The notes beneath the pieces are model-generated. The model did no database searches and was not told the origin of the DNA. It saw only the letters and a program-made list of their open reading frames with translations. A stretch of DNA of 64,000 bases from Robertkochia solimangrovi (GTDB lineage Bacteria > Bacteroidota > Bacteroidia > Flavobacteriales > Flavobacteriaceae), in the NCBI RefSeq assembly GCF_007279655.1, contig NZ_QKWN01000007.1, forward strand, positions 124,001-188,000. The letters are read 5' to 3'. Shown one piece after another: positions 6,136 to 15,348 of this stretch (positions are counted from its first letter, which is position 1; each line of letters begins with the position of its first letter). Both the position numbers and the translations under genes were made by a program.

Positions 6136-6759
6136 ATGGCCTTGGAAGATTCTTTATCACATAGTAACGACGTGGTTTCCATGCTTTTTATTCGCTTCAA
6201 AAATGGAGACGAAAAGGCTTTTAAACATTTTTATGACCTCTTGTATAGTTCTATTCTTGGATTCTGTATGCAATTTATCGATGACGAAGAACAATCAAAT
6301 CATATCGTACAGGAGGCGTTTATCAATCTTTGGTTACATCGCACTTCGATCGAAAAACCCGGAGGTATCCGATCTTTCCTGTATACCGCAGCTAAATCCA
6401 GGTGCCTTAATCATCTGAAACATGAAAAGGTTAAACGTCGCTACAGAGACAATCACTTGGCTGAAAAAGAAAATCAGTTGAATATAAGCATTCTTGACTC
6501 CATGACTTTCGATGAACTGGTGATCAGAGAGATGGAAGAGATCATTTCACAATTTATAGAAGCGTTACCGGAGCAAACCCGCGCAATATTTAAATTAAAA
6601 CGATTTGAAGGAAAAAAGAATTCAGAGATCGCGGAGGAACTGAATATTTCCATAAAAACGGTTGAAGCCCACTTTACAAAGGCTTTACGAACACTCCGTA
6701 AACAATTGAAAGATTATTTCCCGGAATTACTTATCGCCATTTTTCTTCAAAATCTTTAA
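6136..6759 (+). CDS. ECF-type RNA polymerase sigma factor (FecI-like)
   Basis: This is a 207-residue sigma-70 family factor with only regions 2 and 4. Region 2 spans about residues 25-95. Region 4 spans about 140-192, with an ALPEQTRAIFKLKRFEG entry and an HTH containing NSEIAEELNISIKTVEAH. It belongs to the large Bacteroidota ECF group that is paired with FecR anti-sigma factors and SusC-type receptors. The FecR gene follows after 59 bases. By family logic, an outer-membrane signal passed through FecR releases this factor to transcribe the uptake genes behind it. Confidence 0.92.
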   Translation: MALEDSLSHSNDVVSMLFIRFKNGDEKAFKHFYDLLYSSILGFCMQFIDDEEQSNHIVQEAFINLWLHRTSIEKPGGIRSFLYTAAKSRCLNHLKHEKVKRRYRDNHLAEKENQLNISILDSMTFDELVIREMEEIISQFIEALPEQTRAIFKLKRFEGKKNSEIAEELNISIKTVEAHFTKALRTLRKQLKDYFPELLIAIFLQNL

Positions 6760-6818
6760 ATAATTAAAATTTAACATAGGGTTAACCGCAATTGAGTTGT
6801 ACTTAATAGGTAAAGCAA

Positions 6819-7934
6819 ATGAGTACGATGAATTCAGAACTATTATTTCGCTACCTGAACGGAGAGGCAAATGAGAATGAAGTTGAGGAGATCTTTGAAT
6901 GGATCGAAATGAGCGAGGTTAATCGTGCTGAATTCATACGTTTAAAAAAAGCATGGGCGATCGGTCATCGATCCGATTCAGCAAAAAAAGCATCAGCCGG
7001 AAAGATCATTCAGATCGCCAAAAAACGTACAGCGCGGAAACTTGAAAAACGCTTCCTGAAATATGCCTCCGTAGCAGTCATCGCAGGAGCACTATTTGTG
7101 TGGAATCTGACTGAAAAAGATTCAAACATCCCTGTAGAAAAAGTAAACAATGTGGTTCTCGAGCTTCCTGACGGAAACACCAGGGAACTGATCTCCAACG
7201 ACACCCTCTTTTTGAACGGTCAGGCTGTAGCTACTTTCAGCAAAGATTCTATTATCTATCAGGACAATCAGGATCAAATTGAATTCAATATCAAAGTCCC
7301 GTTTGAAAAAACCTATGCCGCTGTTCTGCCAGATGGCACCAAAGTGATGCTGAATGCCGGTAGTGAACTAAGATATTTTCAAAGCTCGGGGGATAGCCTT
7401 AGAAGAACCTCGCTTATCGGTGAGGCATTCTTCGATGTTGCCCGGAATGAAGCAGTTCCCTTCGTTGTTCATACAGAGGACATCGATGTCAGAGTGCTCG
7501 GAACACATTTCAATGTTATGGCCTATACTGAAATGGTAAGCGCTGAAATCACACTTACCGAAGGTTCTGTAAAGGTTTCTGCAAATTCGGAAACTAAAGA
7601 TCCGGTATACCTTGAACCCGGCGAAATTGCACAGTTCGACAAGACAACAGGCCTGTTATCCAAAAGAAAAGTAAGTGACCTAGACCATCTTTCATGGCGA
7701 TATGGCACACTTACCATGCACCAAATGGAAAGTAAAATTCTCTTTGAATTTCTGGAAAGATACTTCGGAGTAGATATAAAAATTGAAAATAGCGCTATTT
7801 CACAATCGAGATTCAGCGGGGAACTGAACCTTAAAGATCAGTCACTCCCGGAGATCCTCGAAATTCTTAAACTCGACACTCCCTTCGACTACCAGGTCAA
7901 TGGCAGTGTAATCAATTTAACAAAGCCAAATTAA
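6819..7934 (+). CDS. FecR-family anti-sigma factor
   Basis: This is a 371-residue inner-membrane signal transducer. Residues 1-80 are cytoplasmic and would hold the sigma factor. A single membrane segment lies at about 82-97. The periplasmic part holds a FecR domain (about 155-255, with an LPDGTKVMLNAGS element and GEAFFDV) and a C-terminal DUF4974 domain (about 300-371) resembling an STN fold, as usual in Bacteroidota. It ends nine bases before the SusC gene and should contact the N-terminal STN domain of that receptor. Confidence 0.92.
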   Translation: MSTMNSELLFRYLNGEANENEVEEIFEWIEMSEVNRAEFIRLKKAWAIGHRSDSAKKASAGKIIQIAKKRTARKLEKRFLKYASVAVIAGALFVWNLTEKDSNIPVEKVNNVVLELPDGNTRELISNDTLFLNGQAVATFSKDSIIYQDNQDQIEFNIKVPFEKTYAAVLPDGTKVMLNAGSELRYFQSSGDSLRRTSLIGEAFFDVARNEAVPFVVHTEDIDVRVLGTHFNVMAYTEMVSAEITLTEGSVKVSANSETKDPVYLEPGEIAQFDKTTGLLSKRKVSDLDHLSWRYGTLTMHQMESKILFEFLERYFGVDIKIENSAISQSRFSGELNLKDQSLPEILEILKLDTPFDYQVNGSVINLTKPN

Positions 7935-7943
7935 TAACTAACC

Positions 7944-10900
7944 ATGAGAAAGCGAAAGTCGCATTTTTTACGGTGGGGATTATTATTTCTATTTCTCCAT
8001 TGTAGTACATTTATTTACTCCCAGACCAAAACGTACAATTTGGATCTTCAGGATGCCCCCTTATCCAAACTTATTGAAGAAATTCGCCAAAATTCTGATT
8101 ACAAGATCATTTATAATTCTGAAAAGATTGATGTTACCACAAGAATTTCGGTAAGCGTTCAAAATGCCTCTATCCGTGAAGTCTTCAGCAAAGCCTTGTC
8201 GGATACTAACCTGAGCTATAAAATAAGTGGCAACCAGATCATTCTTTTGGTAAAACCCGCCACAACAATTCAGGAGCGTGAAATTAATGGAACTGTCCTC
8301 GATGATCTGTACGGCCAGCCACTTGCCGGTGTGGCAATAATGATCAACGGCACGGCTAAGGGATCGATCACCAATTTTGATGGAAACTTCAAATATCTGG
8401 TCAGATCGTCTGATCTGGAAAACGTTGAATTAAAGATTTCTTATATCGGGATGGAAACCATGATTATTCCTATGGGTGATAAGAGTGTTTTCAATATCCG
8501 AATGAAAGAATCGGTTAACGAACTGGATCAGGTAGTAGTGACCTCCTCCTATGGAACCACTAAATTAAAAGAAGAAGTCGTAGGTAGTATAGCAAGTATC
8601 AATTCCAGAGATATCGCCACCGAACAAGCAACCGAGAGTGTTGATAAGGCACTGGAAGGCCAGTTAGCCGGTGTGCTTATCGAAAATACCAGTGGTGTGG
8701 GTGGTCCCGTAAAGATCAACATCCGTGGCCAGGGTAGCCTGAGTCCGATCGGTAACCAGAATCTGGGTACTTCGACCCAACCGCTTATAATCATTGACGG
8801 GGTGACCATCACGGAGGAAATGGCCATTGACAACAGTTTTTTCGATGCCAGCGGATCCTTTGCTGAAAATCTCAACAACCCATTAGCACAGATCGCAGCC
8901 GATGATATCGAAAGTATCAGTGTACTAAAAGATGCCGCTGCAGCGAGTATCTACGGTGCAGATGGAGCTAATGGAGTTATCATTATTACCACAAAAAAAG
9001 GAAAGACTTCAAAGCCAAAATTCAATCTTTCAGCACAGACCGGTATTTCAGAAGCCATCAATCAAATAAAATATCTGAATGGGGCTCAATATACTGAATT
9101 GCGTAATGCTTACCTCATTAATACCGGTCAGAATCCAATATCCTATAACGGAGTGGATACCGATTGGTTCGACCTTATGAACAATACAGGCGTATACCAG
9201 AAATACAATTTCAGTGTTTCCGGAGCCCAAAAGAAATTTAACTATCGTAGTAGTTTAACCTATACAAATCTGGACGAACCTCAGGTGGGTAACGGATCGG
9301 AACAGCTGAACATGAACATAAGTCTTGGCTATACCTCCGGCGCTTTCAGTACCAGTTTGAAACTTAATCCCAGTTATATTCAACGAAACAATCCGAATAT
9401 CTACTATAACTATGCCTTTCTTCCAACCATAGCTCCTTATGACGAAGATGGAAATTACAGCGATATCGGCGTAAGCGGACTTGCAAATCCATTGGCTGCT
9501 GCAGAACAAAACCTGAACAGAACGGAAACCTACGGAATCCTTGGAAGCTTTCAGGCTGCTTTTAAGATCAATGAAGATCTGGAGATCTCAAGTTTATTCG
9601 GGATCGATCATAAGGACAAGGAACAGGACCGTTATTTTTCTGCTCAGAACGAAAGTGGGCGATATAACGGAAATTTTGTTTTAAATGGTGTGGAATACCC
9701 ATCCTGGGGAAGAAGGATCATCAACCAGCGAAATTCCACGCGATGGAACTGGCAGTCACAGGTCAGATATAATAAAAAATTTGGGCAGCATAAGTTTGAC
9801 CTTCTTGCCGGATTTGAAATGAGCGAGGAAAAAACGGATTTTAATTATGCATCCGGACGTGGATTCACAAACCCATACGTTGTTAACAACGTAATCGATG
9901 CCATTCAGGACAATGATCCGGATACCGAAGCTGATGAAACGAATACGAATCAAACTTACGACAGCGATATCAATTATAATTCCAGGGTTTCCTTATATTC
10001 TCAACTGAACTACGATCTGAAAGGTAAATATTTTGCTTTGGTGAATTTCCGCCGTGATGAAAGTTCCGTTTTCGGAGATGACACCAATGTGGCCTATAAT
10101 GGAGGTGCGGGTTTAAGCTGGATTCTGAGCAAGGAAGCATTTTTAGAAAATAGCTCATGGATTGATTTCCTGAAGCTCAAAGTGAGCTACGGTACTACAG
10201 GCAACTCCAGAATAGGTTCCTACCGATCCAAAGGACTCTACCAAACAGCTGTTTCCGGATACAACGGACTGGATGAAGCCACCCCCTATGCAGCTCCTAA
10301 CCCAAGACTTACCTGGGAGCGCAACACCAAATTCAATACAGGAGTCGATATCAATCTTTTTGACCGGCTAAGTCTTAACCTGGAATATTATTATGATAAT
10401 ATCGAAGACCTTATCACTTCCAGAGACATTCCCACAGAAACAGGCTACAGCTCTTTACAGCTAAATGCAGCAAGCATGTATAACAAGGGGTTTGAAGCAA
10501 CGGTCAATATGAAACTTATCAGAAAAGAAAACTTCAACTGGACCGCTTCCTTTAACCTGGCTACTCTGACCAGTGAAGTGACCAGCCTGACCGGACTCGG
10601 GAGTGATTATTCTACGGCCACGGCAGCACTGGCACAAAAAATTGGATACAGCACCTCCACTATTTGGGGTGTGAAATGGGCAGGTATTGATCCTGCAACC
10701 GGAAGAGACCTTATCGATGTTAACGGACAAATCTATGATGCGGCTACGTATAATCAACTACATACCGAGGAAGACTGGCAACCATTAGGTGACAGCCAGC
10801 CTGATGTGTATGGAGGGTTCAATACACGATTTCAAATCTTTAAAAATCTCCTGATTGCAGTGAGAGGTTCGTACCAGTTCGGAAGTGAGTATTTGGTTTC

Positions 10901-11267
10901 AAATAGTCTGATTTCGCAATACAACGTCACTTATAACCGAAATCTATCGGTTAACGCCTTCGATTATTGGAGAAATTCCGGAGATAATGTGCTGCAACCG
11001 ATACCCGCCAACAACCCTGTGATCTCTAACCTGAGTAAGTTTGTCTATGATGATTCCTATATCAGGATCAGCAATATAAATCTGTCGTATCAGATTCCCC
11101 TTCCGGAAAACAGCTTCCTGGATACCTTTTCCATATTTACCGATATTTCAAATGTAGCCTATTGGTATATGGATGAAGCTCCAAAAGGATTGAATGGCAT
11201 AAGAGAATTCAGGTTCAGCTATCCTCAGGCAAGAACCATTTCATGTGGAATTAAAACCAGCTTTTAA
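7944..11267 (+). CDS. SusC/RagA-family TonB-dependent outer-membrane receptor with STN domain
   Basis: This 1107-residue outer-membrane receptor has a signal peptide (1-26), an STN signalling domain (about 33-105), a carboxypeptidase-D-like domain (about 112-195, GTV...GQPLAGV...TNFDGNF), a plug with an IRGQGS element and an LKDAAAASIYGADGANGVIIITTKKG end, and a ~750-residue beta barrel. The STN domain marks it as a transducer that reports ligand binding to FecR as well as importing the ligand. The SusD gene follows after two bases. The substrate is not evident: no glycan-degrading enzyme is nearby, which makes a polysaccharide less obvious than usual. Confidence 0.93.
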   Translation: MRKRKSHFLRWGLLFLFLHCSTFIYSQTKTYNLDLQDAPLSKLIEEIRQNSDYKIIYNSEKIDVTTRISVSVQNASIREVFSKALSDTNLSYKISGNQIILLVKPATTIQEREINGTVLDDLYGQPLAGVAIMINGTAKGSITNFDGNFKYLVRSSDLENVELKISYIGMETMIIPMGDKSVFNIRMKESVNELDQVVVTSSYGTTKLKEEVVGSIASINSRDIATEQATESVDKALEGQLAGVLIENTSGVGGPVKINIRGQGSLSPIGNQNLGTSTQPLIIIDGVTITEEMAIDNSFFDASGSFAENLNNPLAQIAADDIESISVLKDAAAASIYGADGANGVIIITTKKGKTSKPKFNLSAQTGISEAINQIKYLNGAQYTELRNAYLINTGQNPISYNGVDTDWFDLMNNTGVYQKYNFSVSGAQKKFNYRSSLTYTNLDEPQVGNGSEQLNMNISLGYTSGAFSTSLKLNPSYIQRNNPNIYYNYAFLPTIAPYDEDGNYSDIGVSGLANPLAAAEQNLNRTETYGILGSFQAAFKINEDLEISSLFGIDHKDKEQDRYFSAQNESGRYNGNFVLNGVEYPSWGRRIINQRNSTRWNWQSQVRYNKKFGQHKFDLLAGFEMSEEKTDFNYASGRGFTNPYVVNNVIDAIQDNDPDTEADETNTNQTYDSDINYNSRVSLYSQLNYDLKGKYFALVNFRRDESSVFGDDTNVAYNGGAGLSWILSKEAFLENSSWIDFLKLKVSYGTTGNSRIGSYRSKGLYQTAVSGYNGLDEATPYAAPNPRLTWERNTKFNTGVDINLFDRLSLNLEYYYDNIEDLITSRDIPTETGYSSLQLNAASMYNKGFEATVNMKLIRKENFNWTASFNLATLTSEVTSLTGLGSDYSTATAALAQKIGYSTSTIWGVKWAGIDPATGRDLIDVNGQIYDAATYNQLHTEEDWQPLGDSQPDVYGGFNTRFQIFKNLLIAVRGSYQFGSEYLVSNSLISQYNVTYNRNLSVNAFDYWRNSGDNVLQPIPANNPVISNLSKFVYDDSYIRISNINLSYQIPLPENSFLDTFSIFTDISNVAYWYMDEAPKGLNGIREFRFSYPQARTISCGIKTSF

Positions 11268-11269
11268 CG

Positions 11270-12736
11270 ATGAAAAAATCACCAAAATATAATTCGGTCA
11301 TAACCTCAGCACTGTTACTCATACTACTGGTTTCCTGTAGTAATTTTTTGGAACAGGAACCTGGTAAACAAATATCCATCAACGAACAAATGGCTACCAA
11401 AAACGGAGTGCTTATGGCACTGACCGGCACTTACAGCTCTCTCGAAGAGCTAATGCGGATAGAGGCATTTGCGACCTATGGAGACCTTCAGGGCGGAAAT
11501 TTAAGCTTCACACCAGTTGCAACCGGAAGCCTGAAGGGTCAGGTAAGCGTACCCTATTTAGTAGAGAATGTTTATAATTTTCAGGACGATCCCCGTAGCA
11601 GTAATTTCGAAAGTTTCTATGATGCCGCGTATGATGTCATTAACCAGGCGAACCTGATCCTTACCTATGTAGCTGATCTGAATGATGCCAGTGAATCTGA
11701 AATATCTGAAATCAGCGCCGAGGCCTATGCAATTCGTGGTTTTACCCATTTCCTGCTTTCACAGATATATGCCAAGGATTATAGTGCTGGCGGTGATAAT
11801 CCGGGAATCGTTTATATGGATTCAAGCCTGGACAATAATCTTAGCTACCCGTCCCGAAGTTCACTGTCGGAAACGATGACATTGATCATCGAAGATATGA
11901 ACATGGCTTTATCTTCCTTTGAATCAGCACAGGCTTTGGATGGCCCTGAGTATTCTTATTTCAACACCGCAAACGTTCAGGCACTACTCGCACGTATCTA
12001 TCTGGCTGCAGGGCAATATGATAACGCCATTGAAACCGCAGAATCTGTGATTACCAATTCAGGATACAGCCTGACTTCCGGTGAAAACTACATTGCACAG
12101 TGGGAATCCTATAGTACGCCACTATCTGAGACCCTGTTCGAACTTACACCACCACGTGATCAGAATGGAAGTATCGGGGGCTCGCTGCAATCTTTTTTCG
12201 GTTATACAAGCAGTACCACCTTTGGTGATTATATCGCCTCTGCTGACCTTTTAGATATTTTCGAAGAAAATGACATACGAGGAAATGGAATGTTCTTTTC
12301 CACAGAATTGGACACAGATATCAATGGAACACTTACCCCTGTTTCCTATGCTTTTACGAAGAAGTTTCAGGGAGAGCCCGGCATTCCTGTAATACGACTA
12401 AGCGAAATGTATCTCATTATGGCAGAAGCATTACAGCAATCTGGAGAAGATCAGGAAGCGTTGAATTACGTGAACGTTATCAGGGAGCGTGCAAATATCG
12501 AAGCGATCACATCAACCGAAGATCTTGAAAATACAATTTTGCTGGAAAGAAGAAGAGAGTTCTGTTTCGAAGGTGCCCTATTCTTTGATCTGAAAAGATT
12601 ACAAAAGGATATTGTGCGCAATGATTGTATTGCAACCACCTGTGATCTCGTGTACTACTCCAATTACTATGTTCTTCCCATACCACAGAAAAATATCAAC
12701 CTAAATGAAAACCTGGAACAAAATGAAGGCTATTAA
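11270..12736 (+). CDS. SusD/RagB-family surface lipoprotein
   Basis: This is a 488-residue lipoprotein with its lipobox at LVSC (Cys23). It has the SusD TPR-like helical fold: an AEAYAIRGF element, an ARIYLAAGQYDNAIETAESVI repeat, an IRLSEMYLIMAEAL motif and an RRREFCFEG C-terminal motif. It acts as the lid of the SusC barrel, capturing ligand at the cell surface. It overlaps the next gene by 14 bases, so the two are probably co-translated. Confidence 0.92.
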   Translation: MKKSPKYNSVITSALLLILLVSCSNFLEQEPGKQISINEQMATKNGVLMALTGTYSSLEELMRIEAFATYGDLQGGNLSFTPVATGSLKGQVSVPYLVENVYNFQDDPRSSNFESFYDAAYDVINQANLILTYVADLNDASESEISEISAEAYAIRGFTHFLLSQIYAKDYSAGGDNPGIVYMDSSLDNNLSYPSRSSLSETMTLIIEDMNMALSSFESAQALDGPEYSYFNTANVQALLARIYLAAGQYDNAIETAESVITNSGYSLTSGENYIAQWESYSTPLSETLFELTPPRDQNGSIGGSLQSFFGYTSSTTFGDYIASADLLDIFEENDIRGNGMFFSTELDTDINGTLTPVSYAFTKKFQGEPGIPVIRLSEMYLIMAEALQQSGEDQEALNYVNVIRERANIEAITSTEDLENTILLERRREFCFEGALFFDLKRLQKDIVRNDCIATTCDLVYYSNYYVLPIPQKNINLNENLEQNEGY

Positions 12737-14195
12737 ATATATAATCCTGCTCGGTATAGTGCATCTTTTTAACTCTTGCAGTAACGATGACCATAATTAC
12801 CAGGATCAACAAAACATACAACCTTTTATAAGATTCAACTTTATAACGAACAGCAACAACGTTCCTTTGGAATACCCTCAGGTAAGTACAACCACAATTC
12901 CCAGGAACTCTTTTACGAACAATGCGGTAAAACCTCTCAAAATACCTGTTGCTCTGACTTATGCGGGACTTAAAAGTGAGGTTACTGCGACCTACACTAT
13001 GCAGACCGAACTGGATGGGACTGCTTTTGCGGTAAGCCCGGAAACCCTGAGTTTCAGTCCTCAAAAACTGACCGATACTATCATTGTCAATTTCACCGAA
13101 CGCTGGGATTCCGATGCTAAAATTGATTTTACCCTAAACAGCGTATCGGATCAGGAGGTCCATATTGGGAATTTAAACGATAACGCTAAAAACGATACTT
13201 TTGAAATAACCCTGGGCGATCTAAGTACTTCTATGAGTTTTGAGAATAACAGACTTGAGATCTCCGGAACCACTGAGGAAGCCTCTTACTTTCAGGTGAA
13301 TTTTCCCAATGGTTATTTTGATACAGAAATCGACGATAATGAGATCTTTAGCTTTCTAAATGATTTCAGCTATGATATATCAAGAGCATCTGTTACAAGC
13401 ACTTCGATCTTATATAAGATCACACTCAATGAACCTATCGATAATGATGATCTCACATACCAGTCGGTGATCAGTCTGGTTGAAAATGAGCAATATAGTT
13501 TAGGCGCTATCAGCAGATTACAGATCATCAAACCGATCAAAACTGACCGTGACCCTTCCATAAACCCGGCTGCAAAATTCTATGACCCTACGAATCCCTA
13601 TTTCAGAACCTATGGTGAAAACTGGATCGATCATGATAATGACGGTGAATGTACCTGGAGAAATTACTTTGCCTTCACACAGCCGATAGAAGTTTCTGCA
13701 GATCATCCAAATGCAGTGTTGTATTCAGATAATGGCACTCCCGATACTTCAGATGATATTTACTATGACGCGTTTCGAATCAGTTTCAAATCTACTTTGG
13801 CAGGAAGAACTACGAATCCTTTCAATCTACAAAGATGGTTTTCCAATGAGGCAACCGATGCGGATAGGTCTCCGGGATTCAACATCGACCCGGCGTTGGA
13901 ATTCTATCCGGAAAACGGAAATGATCCCGATAAAGGTAGCGTGTTGGTTGTTTCGCAATTCATCACTATTTCAAATAAAGATGGAAAGAGCTTTGAATTC
14001 GCAATCTCGGGTTCAGGAACGTATTTCAGGAATGATCAGGATATCGTGGAGATCGACTTAACTTTGAATGTTACTAATCAGGAAGTATACGGAGGAACGG
14101 TCAGTTCCCGGTACAGAATTTATAATTCCAACGGGTATACCGATCCAGAACCCTTAACCGATGAAGCTTGTATCAATGAGGTTACACTCGAATAA
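12723..14195 (+). CDS. Uncharacterised lipoprotein of the SusCD locus
   Basis: This 490-residue lipoprotein has its signal peptide and lipobox (LFNSC) directly after the ATG at 12723. An ATG 18 bases earlier is also in frame but lengthens the signal peptide for no benefit. Residues ~30-150 form a beta-rich Calx-beta/DUF1735-like region. A notable cluster at residues 301-312 reads WIDHDNDGECTW: a DxDxDG calcium-loop pattern next to one Cys and flanked by two Trp. I recognise no family with known function. Its place between SusD and a di-heme peroxidase suggests either a surface ligand-binding protein or a protein substrate of the peroxidase. Confidence 0.6.
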   Translation: MKAIKYIILLGIVHLFNSCSNDDHNYQDQQNIQPFIRFNFITNSNNVPLEYPQVSTTTIPRNSFTNNAVKPLKIPVALTYAGLKSEVTATYTMQTELDGTAFAVSPETLSFSPQKLTDTIIVNFTERWDSDAKIDFTLNSVSDQEVHIGNLNDNAKNDTFEITLGDLSTSMSFENNRLEISGTTEEASYFQVNFPNGYFDTEIDDNEIFSFLNDFSYDISRASVTSTSILYKITLNEPIDNDDLTYQSVISLVENEQYSLGAISRLQIIKPIKTDRDPSINPAAKFYDPTNPYFRTYGENWIDHDNDGECTWRNYFAFTQPIEVSADHPNAVLYSDNGTPDTSDDIYYDAFRISFKSTLAGRTTNPFNLQRWFSNEATDADRSPGFNIDPALEFYPENGNDPDKGSVLVVSQFITISNKDGKSFEFAISGSGTYFRNDQDIVEIDLTLNVTNQEVYGGTVSSRYRIYNSNGYTDPEPLTDEACINEVTLE

Positions 14196-14202
14196 CATGT
14201 GC

Positions 14203-15348
14203 ATGAAACAATTAATTCCCCTCATAATTTTCAGCATGCTGGTAGCGTGTAAGAACGAAACCAGCATGTCTGAAGACTACCTGCCGGTAACCGAACTTCG
14301 TAAGATGTATGGGTCAGGAGACGCATCCAAATGGCCCGAAGCAGTACTGGATTCAAGTATAGACCGTTCAGAATTTAAGGATATCGGAGTACTTCCAGAG
14401 GTAACCCATCCGGAGACGAATCCCTTTAATGAAGATAAGGCCTATCTGGGTAAAATGCTTTTCCATGATCCCCGCCTTTCACAGAGCGGACAGATCGCTT
14501 GTGCCTCTTGTCATAATCCGGAACTAGCCTGGACCGACAATATAACCAGATCCTTCGGGCATGATCGCCAAAATGGCAAGAGAAATGCCATGACCATAAT
14601 GAACTCGGCGTTCGCAAAGGAGCTTTTTTGGGATGGTCGGGCAGAAAGCTTAGAAGACCAGGCCCGCTTTCCCATTGCTGATAAAGTTGAAATGAATGAA
14701 GAATTAACCCTGGCAGTAGAGAAAATTCAAAATACCGAAGGATATAAACCCTATTTTCAAAAAGCTTTCGGCAATGACAGTATCGATCTTGACCGCATTA
14801 AGAAAGCGATCGCCACTTTTGAGAGAACGATCATAAGTTACCAAAGTAAATTTGACCGTTTTATAAGTGGAGACTCCGCACTCTTCACCGATCAGGAAAT
14901 TCAAGGACTTCATATTTACAGAACGAAAGCCAATTGCATCAGTTGTCATAATACGCCCTATTTCAGCGATAACAAGTTTCATAATGATGGTCAAACACTA
15001 TTTGGAACAAAAAATGAAGATTTCGGACGTTATCATGTAACCGGCAACCAGGAAGATATCGGTAAATTCCGCACTCCTACCTTACGGGAGGTAGGAAGAA
15101 CAGGACCCTGGATGCATAACGGACATTTCCCGAGTCTTATCGACGTCATCGAGTTTTACAATTTGGGAAACCCGTCACCAATTCAAAAGAAATATCTGGG
15201 GACACCAAGAGACTCTCTGATTCCGGACACTTCTCCAATTCTTCGAAAACTGGACCTGAACCGTGATGAAATTAATGCACTCGAAGCTTTCCTGAAAACC
15301 TTGAGTACGCCGGTAAGGCGAATCATAATTCCCGAACTTCCGGAGTGA
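14203..15348 (+). CDS. Di-heme cytochrome c peroxidase / MauG-type lipoprotein
   Basis: This 381-residue protein has a lipobox (SMLVAC, Cys about 18) and two c-type heme sites, CASCH at 100-104 and CISCH at 245-249. The flanking elements LGKMLFHDPRLS and RTPTLREVGRTGPWMHNG are those of the bacterial di-heme peroxidase/MauG superfamily. Members either reduce hydrogen peroxide or, like MauG and MbnH, oxidise residues of a partner protein. The earlier in-frame ATG at 14161 lies inside the previous gene; the ATG at 14203 fits the signal peptide. It starts seven bases after the lipoprotein gene and closes the operon before a terminator. Confidence 0.88.
   Translation: MKQLIPLIIFSMLVACKNETSMSEDYLPVTELRKMYGSGDASKWPEAVLDSSIDRSEFKDIGVLPEVTHPETNPFNEDKAYLGKMLFHDPRLSQSGQIACASCHNPELAWTDNITRSFGHDRQNGKRNAMTIMNSAFAKELFWDGRAESLEDQARFPIADKVEMNEELTLAVEKIQNTEGYKPYFQKAFGNDSIDLDRIKKAIATFERTIISYQSKFDRFISGDSALFTDQEIQGLHIYRTKANCISCHNTPYFSDNKFHNDGQTLFGTKNEDFGRYHVTGNQEDIGKFRTPTLREVGRTGPWMHNGHFPSLIDVIEFYNLGNPSPIQKKYLGTPRDSLIPDTSPILRKLDLNRDEINALEAFLKTLSTPVRRIIIPELPE

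Follow-up and report, generated by a model that had tools for sequence, protein, structure and literature searches.

An inherited SusCD uptake module with an unclassified lipoprotein and a MauG-type di-heme enzyme that may modify it

Six genes at positions 6136-15348 of a 64,000-nucleotide stretch of Robertkochia solimangrovi DNA (the window) form an ECF/FecR-controlled SusCD locus, at the end of which lie the genes for an unclassified lipoprotein, here called LIPO, and a di-heme enzyme. The six constitute one inherited uptake module, for which we infer the chemistry. Our tentative reading, possible rather than probable, is that LIPO is a third surface subunit of the SusCD system and is matured by the enzyme at a conserved Trp/Cys cluster. 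We know of few proteins that serve as substrates for the large CCP_MauG superfamily; the LIPO family, which accompanies one Tyr-bearing di-heme clade at each of the loci examined, is a concrete, small, and testable candidate. As far as we know, SusCD uptake serves only the import of carbohydrates, peptides, and similar compounds. If the reading is true, a post-translational oxidation step would be added to it; if the ligand is what the enzyme acts on, heme-catalyzed oxidation would still be at the center of this SusCD system.

All six genes lie on the forward strand. The locus opens with a Bacteroidota-type ECF sigma factor (6136..6759; TIGR02985, 170.5 bits against a cut-off of 126.4) and a FecR-type anti-sigma/transducer protein (6819..7934; PF04773, 53.1 against 24, with PF16344 also over its cut-off). 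The SusC/RagA TonB-linked receptor (7944..11267; TIGR04056, 614 bits, cut-off 368.25) has an N-terminal STN signaling domain at residues 53-102 (46.1 bits) and is followed by the SusD/RagB surface lipoprotein (11270..12736; PF07980, 101.6, cut-off 23.1), LIPO (12723..14195; 490 aa), and the MauG-type di-heme c enzyme (14203..15348; 381 aa; PF03150, 195.7 bits, cut-off 25.6). With SusC and SusD adjacent and both over their cut-offs, the locus is a SusCD system, and with its sigma factor, FecR, and STN-bearing receptor it is an ECF/FecR TonB-dependent transducer. The preliminary description had the coordinates, the gene order, and the 7-base gap between LIPO and the enzyme (14196-14202) exactly right; it also held that the locus carries no glycan-degrading enzyme, and no such family matched when the six operon genes were scanned with Pfam and NCBIfam profiles.

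Together with 22 relatives, the window gives 23 loci for comparison (L034, from genome G429, matched L008 in its identities and was left out as a duplicate). SusC is present at every one of them, and SusC, SusD, LIPO, and the enzyme follow in one order and on one strand at 23/23, an arrangement that exceeds chance because it is kept throughout. The ECF/FecR pair lies upstream of SusC at 21 loci; the two others have a SusC some 100 residues shorter that gives no STN match. Among the receptors scanned, STN was found in four of five long ones (window, L012, L035, and L036, not L007) and in neither of two short ones. Of 395 genomes of the order, 18 contain LIPO, and exactly these 18 contain SusD (E ≤ 1e-50) and the enzyme (at least 58% identity). 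LIPO had no match on plasmids; a partial match in genome G008 (41 residues, E 8e-4) was judged to be chance and left uncounted, the surrounding stretch (L014) having no SusCD or di-heme match. Our literature search found no paper on LIPO with a di-heme enzyme, the items retrieved being off-topic by title and abstract.

The idea that the enzyme modifies LIPO had been expected to fall if relatives of the lipoprotein commonly occurred without it, and none such was found at these loci or in these genomes. The strict co-occurrence and the invariant cluster described below thus support the idea, but the whole SusCD module co-occurs and no pair is singled out: as the module is all or none, its distribution cannot tell whether the enzyme's partner is LIPO or SusCD. 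LIPO in fact has a tighter link with SusD than with the enzyme. Each of the 23 loci has the same 14-nt overlap between the SusD and LIPO genes, whereas the LIPO-enzyme spacing ranges from -11 to 682 nt, and at L049 a 169-aa gene intervenes. One simple pattern revealed no separate promoter before the enzyme in the nine gaps longer than 60 nt.

LIPO had been called a lipoprotein of no known family, and this stands, with no Pfam or NCBIfam match over cut-off and no convincing PDB chain whether it was tried singly, as 23 members, or as a profile. It has a lipobox-like FNSC with lipid Cys19, followed by the acidic stretch CSNDD. At least two acidic residues fall at +2 to +6 after the lipid Cys in 23/23 members (an alignment-based count), which matches the export signal of surface-exposed Bacteroidota lipoproteins as set out in the available part of the source (PMC5080379) and suggests that LIPO is probably at the surface. 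We rejected the idea that it is a divergent form of either of two lipoproteins found next to di-heme genes: profile comparisons with four MbnPs and with DUF4876 proteins align the signal peptide only, and the MbnP family PF20243 is absent from the matches of all 23.

Invariant in all 23 are Trp128, Trp301, Cys310, Trp312, and Cys483 (14169..14171), the second invariant non-lipid Cys, with 7 residues from there to the C terminus; W372 is kept in 22. The protein is otherwise poor in these residues, with exactly four Trp in 16/23 and exactly three Cys in 20/23. The cluster WIDHDNDGECTW (W301-IDHDNDGE-C310-T-W312; 13623..13658), pointed out in the preliminary description, is present in the window protein, and its Trp and Cys are conserved as had been required of it, but its other residues are not invariant. 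A calcium-like acidic loop did not survive as a conserved feature: DHDNDG is exact in only 6/23 and shortened in all 13 members from genus g121, and we rejected a calcium-binding loop as the conserved core. Because most protein families conserve their Trp and Cys, invariance here counts for little. None of the 23 proteins' His columns is invariant, the highest holding 16, 13, 12, and 12 His, and the window protein has Tyr in the first of these. AlphaFold models of LIPO and the enzyme from six-row alignments were poor (mean pLDDT 45.9 and 36.7), and exposure of the cluster is therefore unsupported. The best PDB matches of the poor LIPO model are Calx-beta type domains, which is not evidence on the Trp/Cys region, and one of the 23 members has a weak Calx-beta profile match (E 0.05).

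The enzyme belongs to the CCP_MauG superfamily, with PF03150 over cut-off and both CXXCH hemes (C100-H104 and C245-H249) in 23/23, and its best PDB match is the di-heme peroxidase 1iqc (E 2e-61). It falls below the cut-offs for MauG (TIGR03791, 233.1 against 443.85 bits) and MbnH (TIGR04039, 226.5 against 362.85 bits), as do all TIGR04039 matches in 149 relatives searched for the latter. Tyr319, present in 23/23, aligns with MauG Tyr294 (3rn0 chain) and with an MbnH Tyr, and would be the axial ligand of a six-coordinate heme as in MauG. The Met of canonical bacterial cytochrome c peroxidases (bCCPs) is thus missing; it presumably falls at the Tyr319 place, the printed bCCP alignments ending just before it. 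His120, Trp143, Gln153, and Glu163, corresponding to the peroxide site and inter-heme Trp of bCCPs, are present in 23/23. His120 stands at the position of the bCCP ligand-switch His; the Trp, Gln, and Glu are common to MauG-type enzymes as well. In 23/23, Ala243 precedes the second heme Cys by two residues and may occupy the place of the electron-hole hopping residue Trp199 of MauG. If the enzyme had kept every residue of an ordinary peroxidase, the partner idea was to be given up; the outcome is divided, with the axial Met replaced but the four other residues all retained.

The enzymes of the LIPO loci form one clade (97/87) with eight clade-specific invariant residues; the stretch with three of them, 331, 333, and 336, is mostly gapped or different in 20 sampled relatives. 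In the window, the enzyme has the lipobox LVAC with lipid Cys16, as expected from its description as a lipoprotein, but lipidation is not conserved. A lipobox is clear in 10/23 and not clear in 13/23, with no consistent export signal (L049 and L035 were read manually as lipoboxes, FSC, and the Cys of L044 as none, by its relatives). With so many enzymes lacking a clear lipobox, contact with LIPO would be periplasmic.

The 20 relatives are next-closest enzymes sampled from 53 listed, at no more than 56% identity. At 11 of their loci a DUF4876/DUF6850-type set of TonB receptor, lipoprotein, and barrel genes precedes the di-heme gene; the other nine enzymes have no receptor-lipoprotein set directly upstream. 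These solo enzymes retain Tyr319, Trp143, Gln153, and Glu163, and also His120 (9/9), where MbnH-like enzymes have Ile or Val (6/6). MbnP (PF20243) lies directly upstream at four of six MbnH-like loci inspected in the same order. In Bacteroides thetaiotaomicron and Porphyromonas gingivalis, TBDT-DUF4876 genes are reported to be up on iron depletion, and no di-heme gene is named among the matches listed in the available part of that paper (PMC10434189).

The cellular locations, the choice of LIPO as substrate, the residues modified, and the ligand are what we infer in the scheme that follows. The enzyme, periplasmic and lipid anchored in some lineages and without a clear lipobox in others, would use peroxide to oxidize the LIPO cluster (W301, C310, and W312, which may lie near C483) before LIPO is transferred to the cell surface. 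The oxidation would give LIPO, the third surface lipoprotein and a new family, a working ligand- or metal-binding site. SusD and LIPO would then capture the ligand, SusC would import it, and the STN domain of SusC would signal by way of FecR and the sigma factor. The single gene order and shared distribution favor this reading, as do the clade's own invariant residues with Tyr319 at the MauG/MbnH place, the few yet invariant Trp and Cys of a protein that everywhere has a surface-export signal, and the other lipoproteins that precede other Tyr-bearing di-heme genes of the order. The CorA/CorB and MopE/SACCP precedents, as far as the available parts of the reports go, point the same way (PMC3912023, PMC3621798). 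The all-or-none module and the loose LIPO-enzyme spacing beside a fixed SusD-LIPO overlap disfavor it, and so do the solo relatives, the retained His120, the peroxidase BthA, Ala243, the lack of a LIPO His column above 16/23, and the knock-out phenotype of a CorB-type enzyme (PMC3912023).

In another reading, LIPO would be an ordinary third SusCD surface lipoprotein comparable to SusE/SusF. The enzyme would provide a catabolic step, oxidizing or cleaving in the periplasm the ligand brought in by the module, and would never touch LIPO. We consider this somewhat unlikely. The gene spacing, the distribution of LIPO, SusD, and the enzyme as one block, and an export signal constant in LIPO but not consistent in the enzymes, many of which have no clear lipobox, argue for it, and the six genes include no other catabolic enzyme. 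A secreted ELWxxDGT protein at 6/23 loci suggests further surface parts. Yet there is no evident ligand or set of downstream catabolic genes, and MauG, CorB, and SACCP are shown or proposed, in the portions of the literature available, to act on a co-encoded surface or secreted protein. It is very improbable that the substrate is SusD or the ELWxxDGT repeat protein rather than LIPO. Six of the 18 module genomes searched have ELWxxDGT genes, each with a same-strand copy at the module (six of seven genes, G449 having a second elsewhere); the gene occurs in 10 of 99 relatives in a different sample with two genomes in common. At the 17 other loci, that of the window among them, the stretch fetched does not contain it. 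The window genome gave no hit, in a search in which no control genome matched either, and a literature search on ELWxxDGT found no paper.

The enzyme might also be a plain peroxidase, which we think unlikely; it would clear hydrogen peroxide in the vicinity of an uptake system whose ligand is redox-active or iron-related. The match to 1iqc, the four retained residues, the solo relatives, and the iron-depletion response of TBDT-DUF4876 genes argue for it. Against it, the enzyme shows strict linkage with one SusCD-LIPO module, not with general stress genes, and it is confined to 18 of 395 genomes. The Tyr in place of Met also speaks against it without being decisive. The six-coordinate heme is Met-His ligated in bCCPs and Tyr-His ligated in MauG, and BthA, in which Tyr directs the enzyme to the bis-Fe(IV) state, combines Tyr-His ligation with peroxide turnover, according to the available text (PMC6405878). 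Tyr319 therefore does not exclude a peroxidase, and BthA and the His120 comparison together weaken it as a mark of protein modification.

Among known systems, the enzyme shares with bCCPs the superfamily and His120, Trp143, Gln153, and Glu163, differing from canonical members in the Tyr, and it resembles BthA in its putative Tyr-His ligation but has Trp143 between the hemes where BthA, as reported, has Ser. MauG, which makes tryptophan tryptophylquinone, is likewise a di-heme protein with Tyr aligned to Tyr319; the enzyme scores below its cut-off, and no methylamine dehydrogenase gene is among the six. As in the methanobactin-associated pair MbnP/MbnH, a lipoprotein gene directly precedes a Tyr-bearing di-heme gene, with the differences in score, His120, and PF20243 given above. 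In the TBDT-DUF4876-DUF6850 loci of the same order, too, the enzyme comes last in a set of genes for an outer-membrane receptor and a lipoprotein, but the receptor and the lipoprotein family are different and a barrel gene is added. In CorA/CorB and MopE/SACCP, the gene for a di-heme protein accompanies that for a surface protein, one Trp of which becomes kynurenine (PMC3912023, PMC3621798). The CorA copper site has two His, and the authors infer from the CorB-type knock-out that copper binds without the enzyme (PMC3912023). LIPO differs in lying in a SusCD operon and, judged by its alignment, is probably not a copper protein of the CorA/MopE type, since two conserved His are lacking. A more novel reading, which is rather unlikely, is that LIPO founds a new class of proteins modified by MauG-type enzymes. 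It would be a SusCD subunit at the surface that acquires a Trp- or Cys/Trp-derived modification in the periplasm and has none of the His ligands of kynurenine copper proteins, and a Bacteroidota system for nutrient uptake would thus depend on a protein-derived cofactor put in place by a di-heme enzyme.

In the window, six genes lie head to tail: those for an ECF sigma factor (6136-6759), a FecR (6819-7934), a SusC with an STN domain (7944-11267), a SusD (11270-12736), an unclassified lipoprotein that we call LIPO (12723-14195) and, last, the di-heme enzyme (14203-15348). Gene calls and family scans of the six genes agree with the preliminary description both in its coordinates and in its account of the locus. 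SusD and LIPO overlap by 14 nt, and 7 nt separate the end of LIPO from the start of the enzyme. The genome (G000; the locus is on contig C19) is 4.4 Mb.

This arrangement proved to be a conserved and coinherited module. LIPO relatives were found in five Leeuwenhoekiella genomes, in G073 and G091 and in 15 more genomes of the order, giving 23 loci with the window; L034, a duplicate of L008, was left out of the counts. At all 23, SusC, SusD, LIPO and the enzyme follow one another in this order on a single strand. In a sample of 395 genomes of the order, LIPO was present in 18, and the identical 18 held the SusD (E<=1e-50) and the enzyme (at least 58% identity); at most four first-look candidates were scored per genome, so some copies could have been missed. 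Sampling 395 genomes across the phylum gave nine LIPO matches, each among those 18 genomes, and the plasmid search gave none. A 41-residue partial LIPO match in G008 was regarded as chance and excluded. The module-locus scores of G429, from the same family as the window genome, were identical to those of the Leeuwenhoekiella polynyae (Flavobacteriaceae) locus.

An ECF and FecR pair precedes SusC at 21 of the 23 loci, the exceptions being those of G091 and G388 (L013 and L049). In these two genomes SusC is also short, at 1012 and 1019 residues compared to 1107 to 1126 elsewhere, and no STN domain was matched in either; STN was seen in four of the five long SusC proteins scanned. Absence of the signaling domain where the regulators are missing suggests that they are dedicated to this SusC. 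Regulators and STN extension were seemingly gained or lost as one at L013 and L049. Past the end of the enzyme gene, the G388 locus does carry a distantly related ECF-like gene (27% identity); no FecR was matched.

Other neighbors are less constant. A protein with ELWxxDGT repeats and a type IX secretion (T9SS) tail is encoded near the module, on its strand, at 6 of the 23 loci (L012:6424-7806, L035:4185-5594, L039:14363-15940, L040:3725-5320, L048:11891-13459 and L049:12947-14395; three confirmed by family scan, the others from the genome search). Three of the six belong to one genus, g121, so that the finding covers four genera. Such a gene occurs in 6 of the 18 module genomes searched; each of the six has it at the module, and G449 alone has another copy elsewhere. 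The genome search found no match in the window genome. Among 99 relatives, 10 had a match, and no di-heme gene lay within the stretches at the six of these neighborhoods examined. In one of the six, the ELWxxDGT protein (L163:7833-9341; 39% identity to that of L012) adjoins another ECF/FecR SusCD locus, and the 16 kb retrieved there contain no di-heme gene. The literature search returned no paper naming the repeat. At L036, L043, L044 and L046, genus g121 loci, a His- and Cys-rich heavy-metal P-type ATPase-like protein, named by eye, is encoded nearby, downstream of the enzyme; in L038 and L042 the gene runs off the end of the stretch.

For LIPO itself, Pfam, NCBIfam and the PDB gave no convincing match. 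The preliminary description had singled out an acidic loop with neighboring Trp and Cys residues. Across the 23 aligned proteins the loop is not conserved, and the Trp/Cys cluster is: W301, C310 and W312 are invariant, as are C19, C483 and W128, with W372 kept in 22. Exactly four Trp occur in 16 of the proteins and exactly three Cys in 20. C310 and C483 may be disulfide-bonded or may belong to one site. There is no invariant His, the fullest His columns being 16, 13, 12 and 12 of 23. At L049, an apparently secreted 169-aa protein without a Pfam match (6400-6906) is encoded between LIPO and the enzyme.

All 23 LIPO proteins have at least two acidic residues at +2 to +6, and acidic residues after the lipid Cys are a published lipoprotein export signal (PMC5080379). 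The enzyme has no consistent export signal across the loci; a lipobox could be read by eye in 10, with no clear one at the 13 of genus g121. Given this difference, we imagine that the two would meet in the periplasm and that LIPO would be exported afterwards. For comparison, CorB and its M. alcaliphilum counterpart are described as lying mainly in the periplasm and SACCP as a surface protein, and knock-out of the counterpart was interpreted there as leaving copper binding possible (PMC3912023).

The enzyme belongs to the CCP_MauG superfamily (195.7 bits) and scores under the curated cut-offs of both the MauG model (233.1 bits; cut-off, 443.85) and the MbnH model (226.5 bits; cut-off, 362.85). 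In alignments, its Tyr319 falls at MauG position 294 and opposite a Tyr in the structure of MbnH. Tyr319, His120, Trp143, Gln153, Glu163 and both hemes are kept at all 23 loci. Heme ligation is given as Met-His in bacterial CCPs and Tyr-His in MauG; BthA, which is Tyr-His ligated and has a bis-Fe(IV) state, nevertheless reduces peroxide (PMC6405878). Thus, Tyr319 allows MauG-type chemistry without proving it. The window genome encodes a second CCP_MauG protein on contig C14 (L015:9448-11292; 615 aa, including a long extension at the N terminus; 171 bits to the MbnH model), adjoined by a 517-aa protein without an NCBIfam match.

Beyond the module, 53 further enzyme matches were listed, each at no more than 56% identity, and 20 were fetched. 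Eleven lie downstream of a TonB receptor-lipoprotein-barrel gene set (L080, L088 to L094, and L097 to L099), so that a Tyr-bearing di-heme enzyme is repeatedly encoded beside another lipoprotein. Pfam identified DUF4876 in all three lipoproteins and DUF6850 in all three barrels scanned; the other eight loci were typed by gene order and size, with the 11 lipoproteins aligned jointly. The nine solo enzymes lack such a set, L084 and L085 having a divergent receptor-like gene (read from sequence) and L081 lying downstream of a beta-helix protein. Tyr319, Trp143, Gln153 and Glu163 are kept in all 20, and so mark the branch, not partnership with LIPO; eight other residues are invariant within the LIPO clade and nearly absent from the 20. 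All nine solo enzymes keep His120, as do 4 of the 11 of DUF4876 type, and six of six MbnH-like enzymes have Ile or Val instead, so by this residue the LIPO-clade enzymes look more peroxidase-like. In a tree of 44 enzymes, whose very distant outgroup leaves the root not firm, the 23 form one group (97/87) neighboring seven solo enzymes.

That the enzyme modifies LIPO at the Trp/Cys cluster is the most likely single reading, although we would put it at somewhat less than an even chance. It is favored by the known pattern of Tyr-bearing enzymes encoded beside a lipoprotein or secreted protein and by the conservation of the few Trp and Cys residues of LIPO. It falls short of proof because the linkage extends to the entire SusCD module, with LIPO tied more closely to SusD than to the enzyme; because close enzymes without such partners exist and this one retains its peroxidase residues; and because the predicted structures of both proteins are poor.

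In the order, Tyr-bearing di-heme genes accompany at least three lipoprotein families, or none. MbnP is encoded directly upstream at four of six MbnH-like loci inspected (by Pfam, four of four scanned) and was not seen at the other two; LIPO has no detectable similarity to MbnP or DUF4876 proteins. As to the ligand of the LIPO module, there is only a hint, by analogy with the TBDT-DUF4876 operons, a type found with some of the next-closest enzymes: in iron depletion, such genes are reported to rise 112- to 128-fold in Bacteroides thetaiotaomicron (BT3631-33) and 20.8- to 214.5-fold in Porphyromonas gingivalis (PG1019-22) (PMC10434189).
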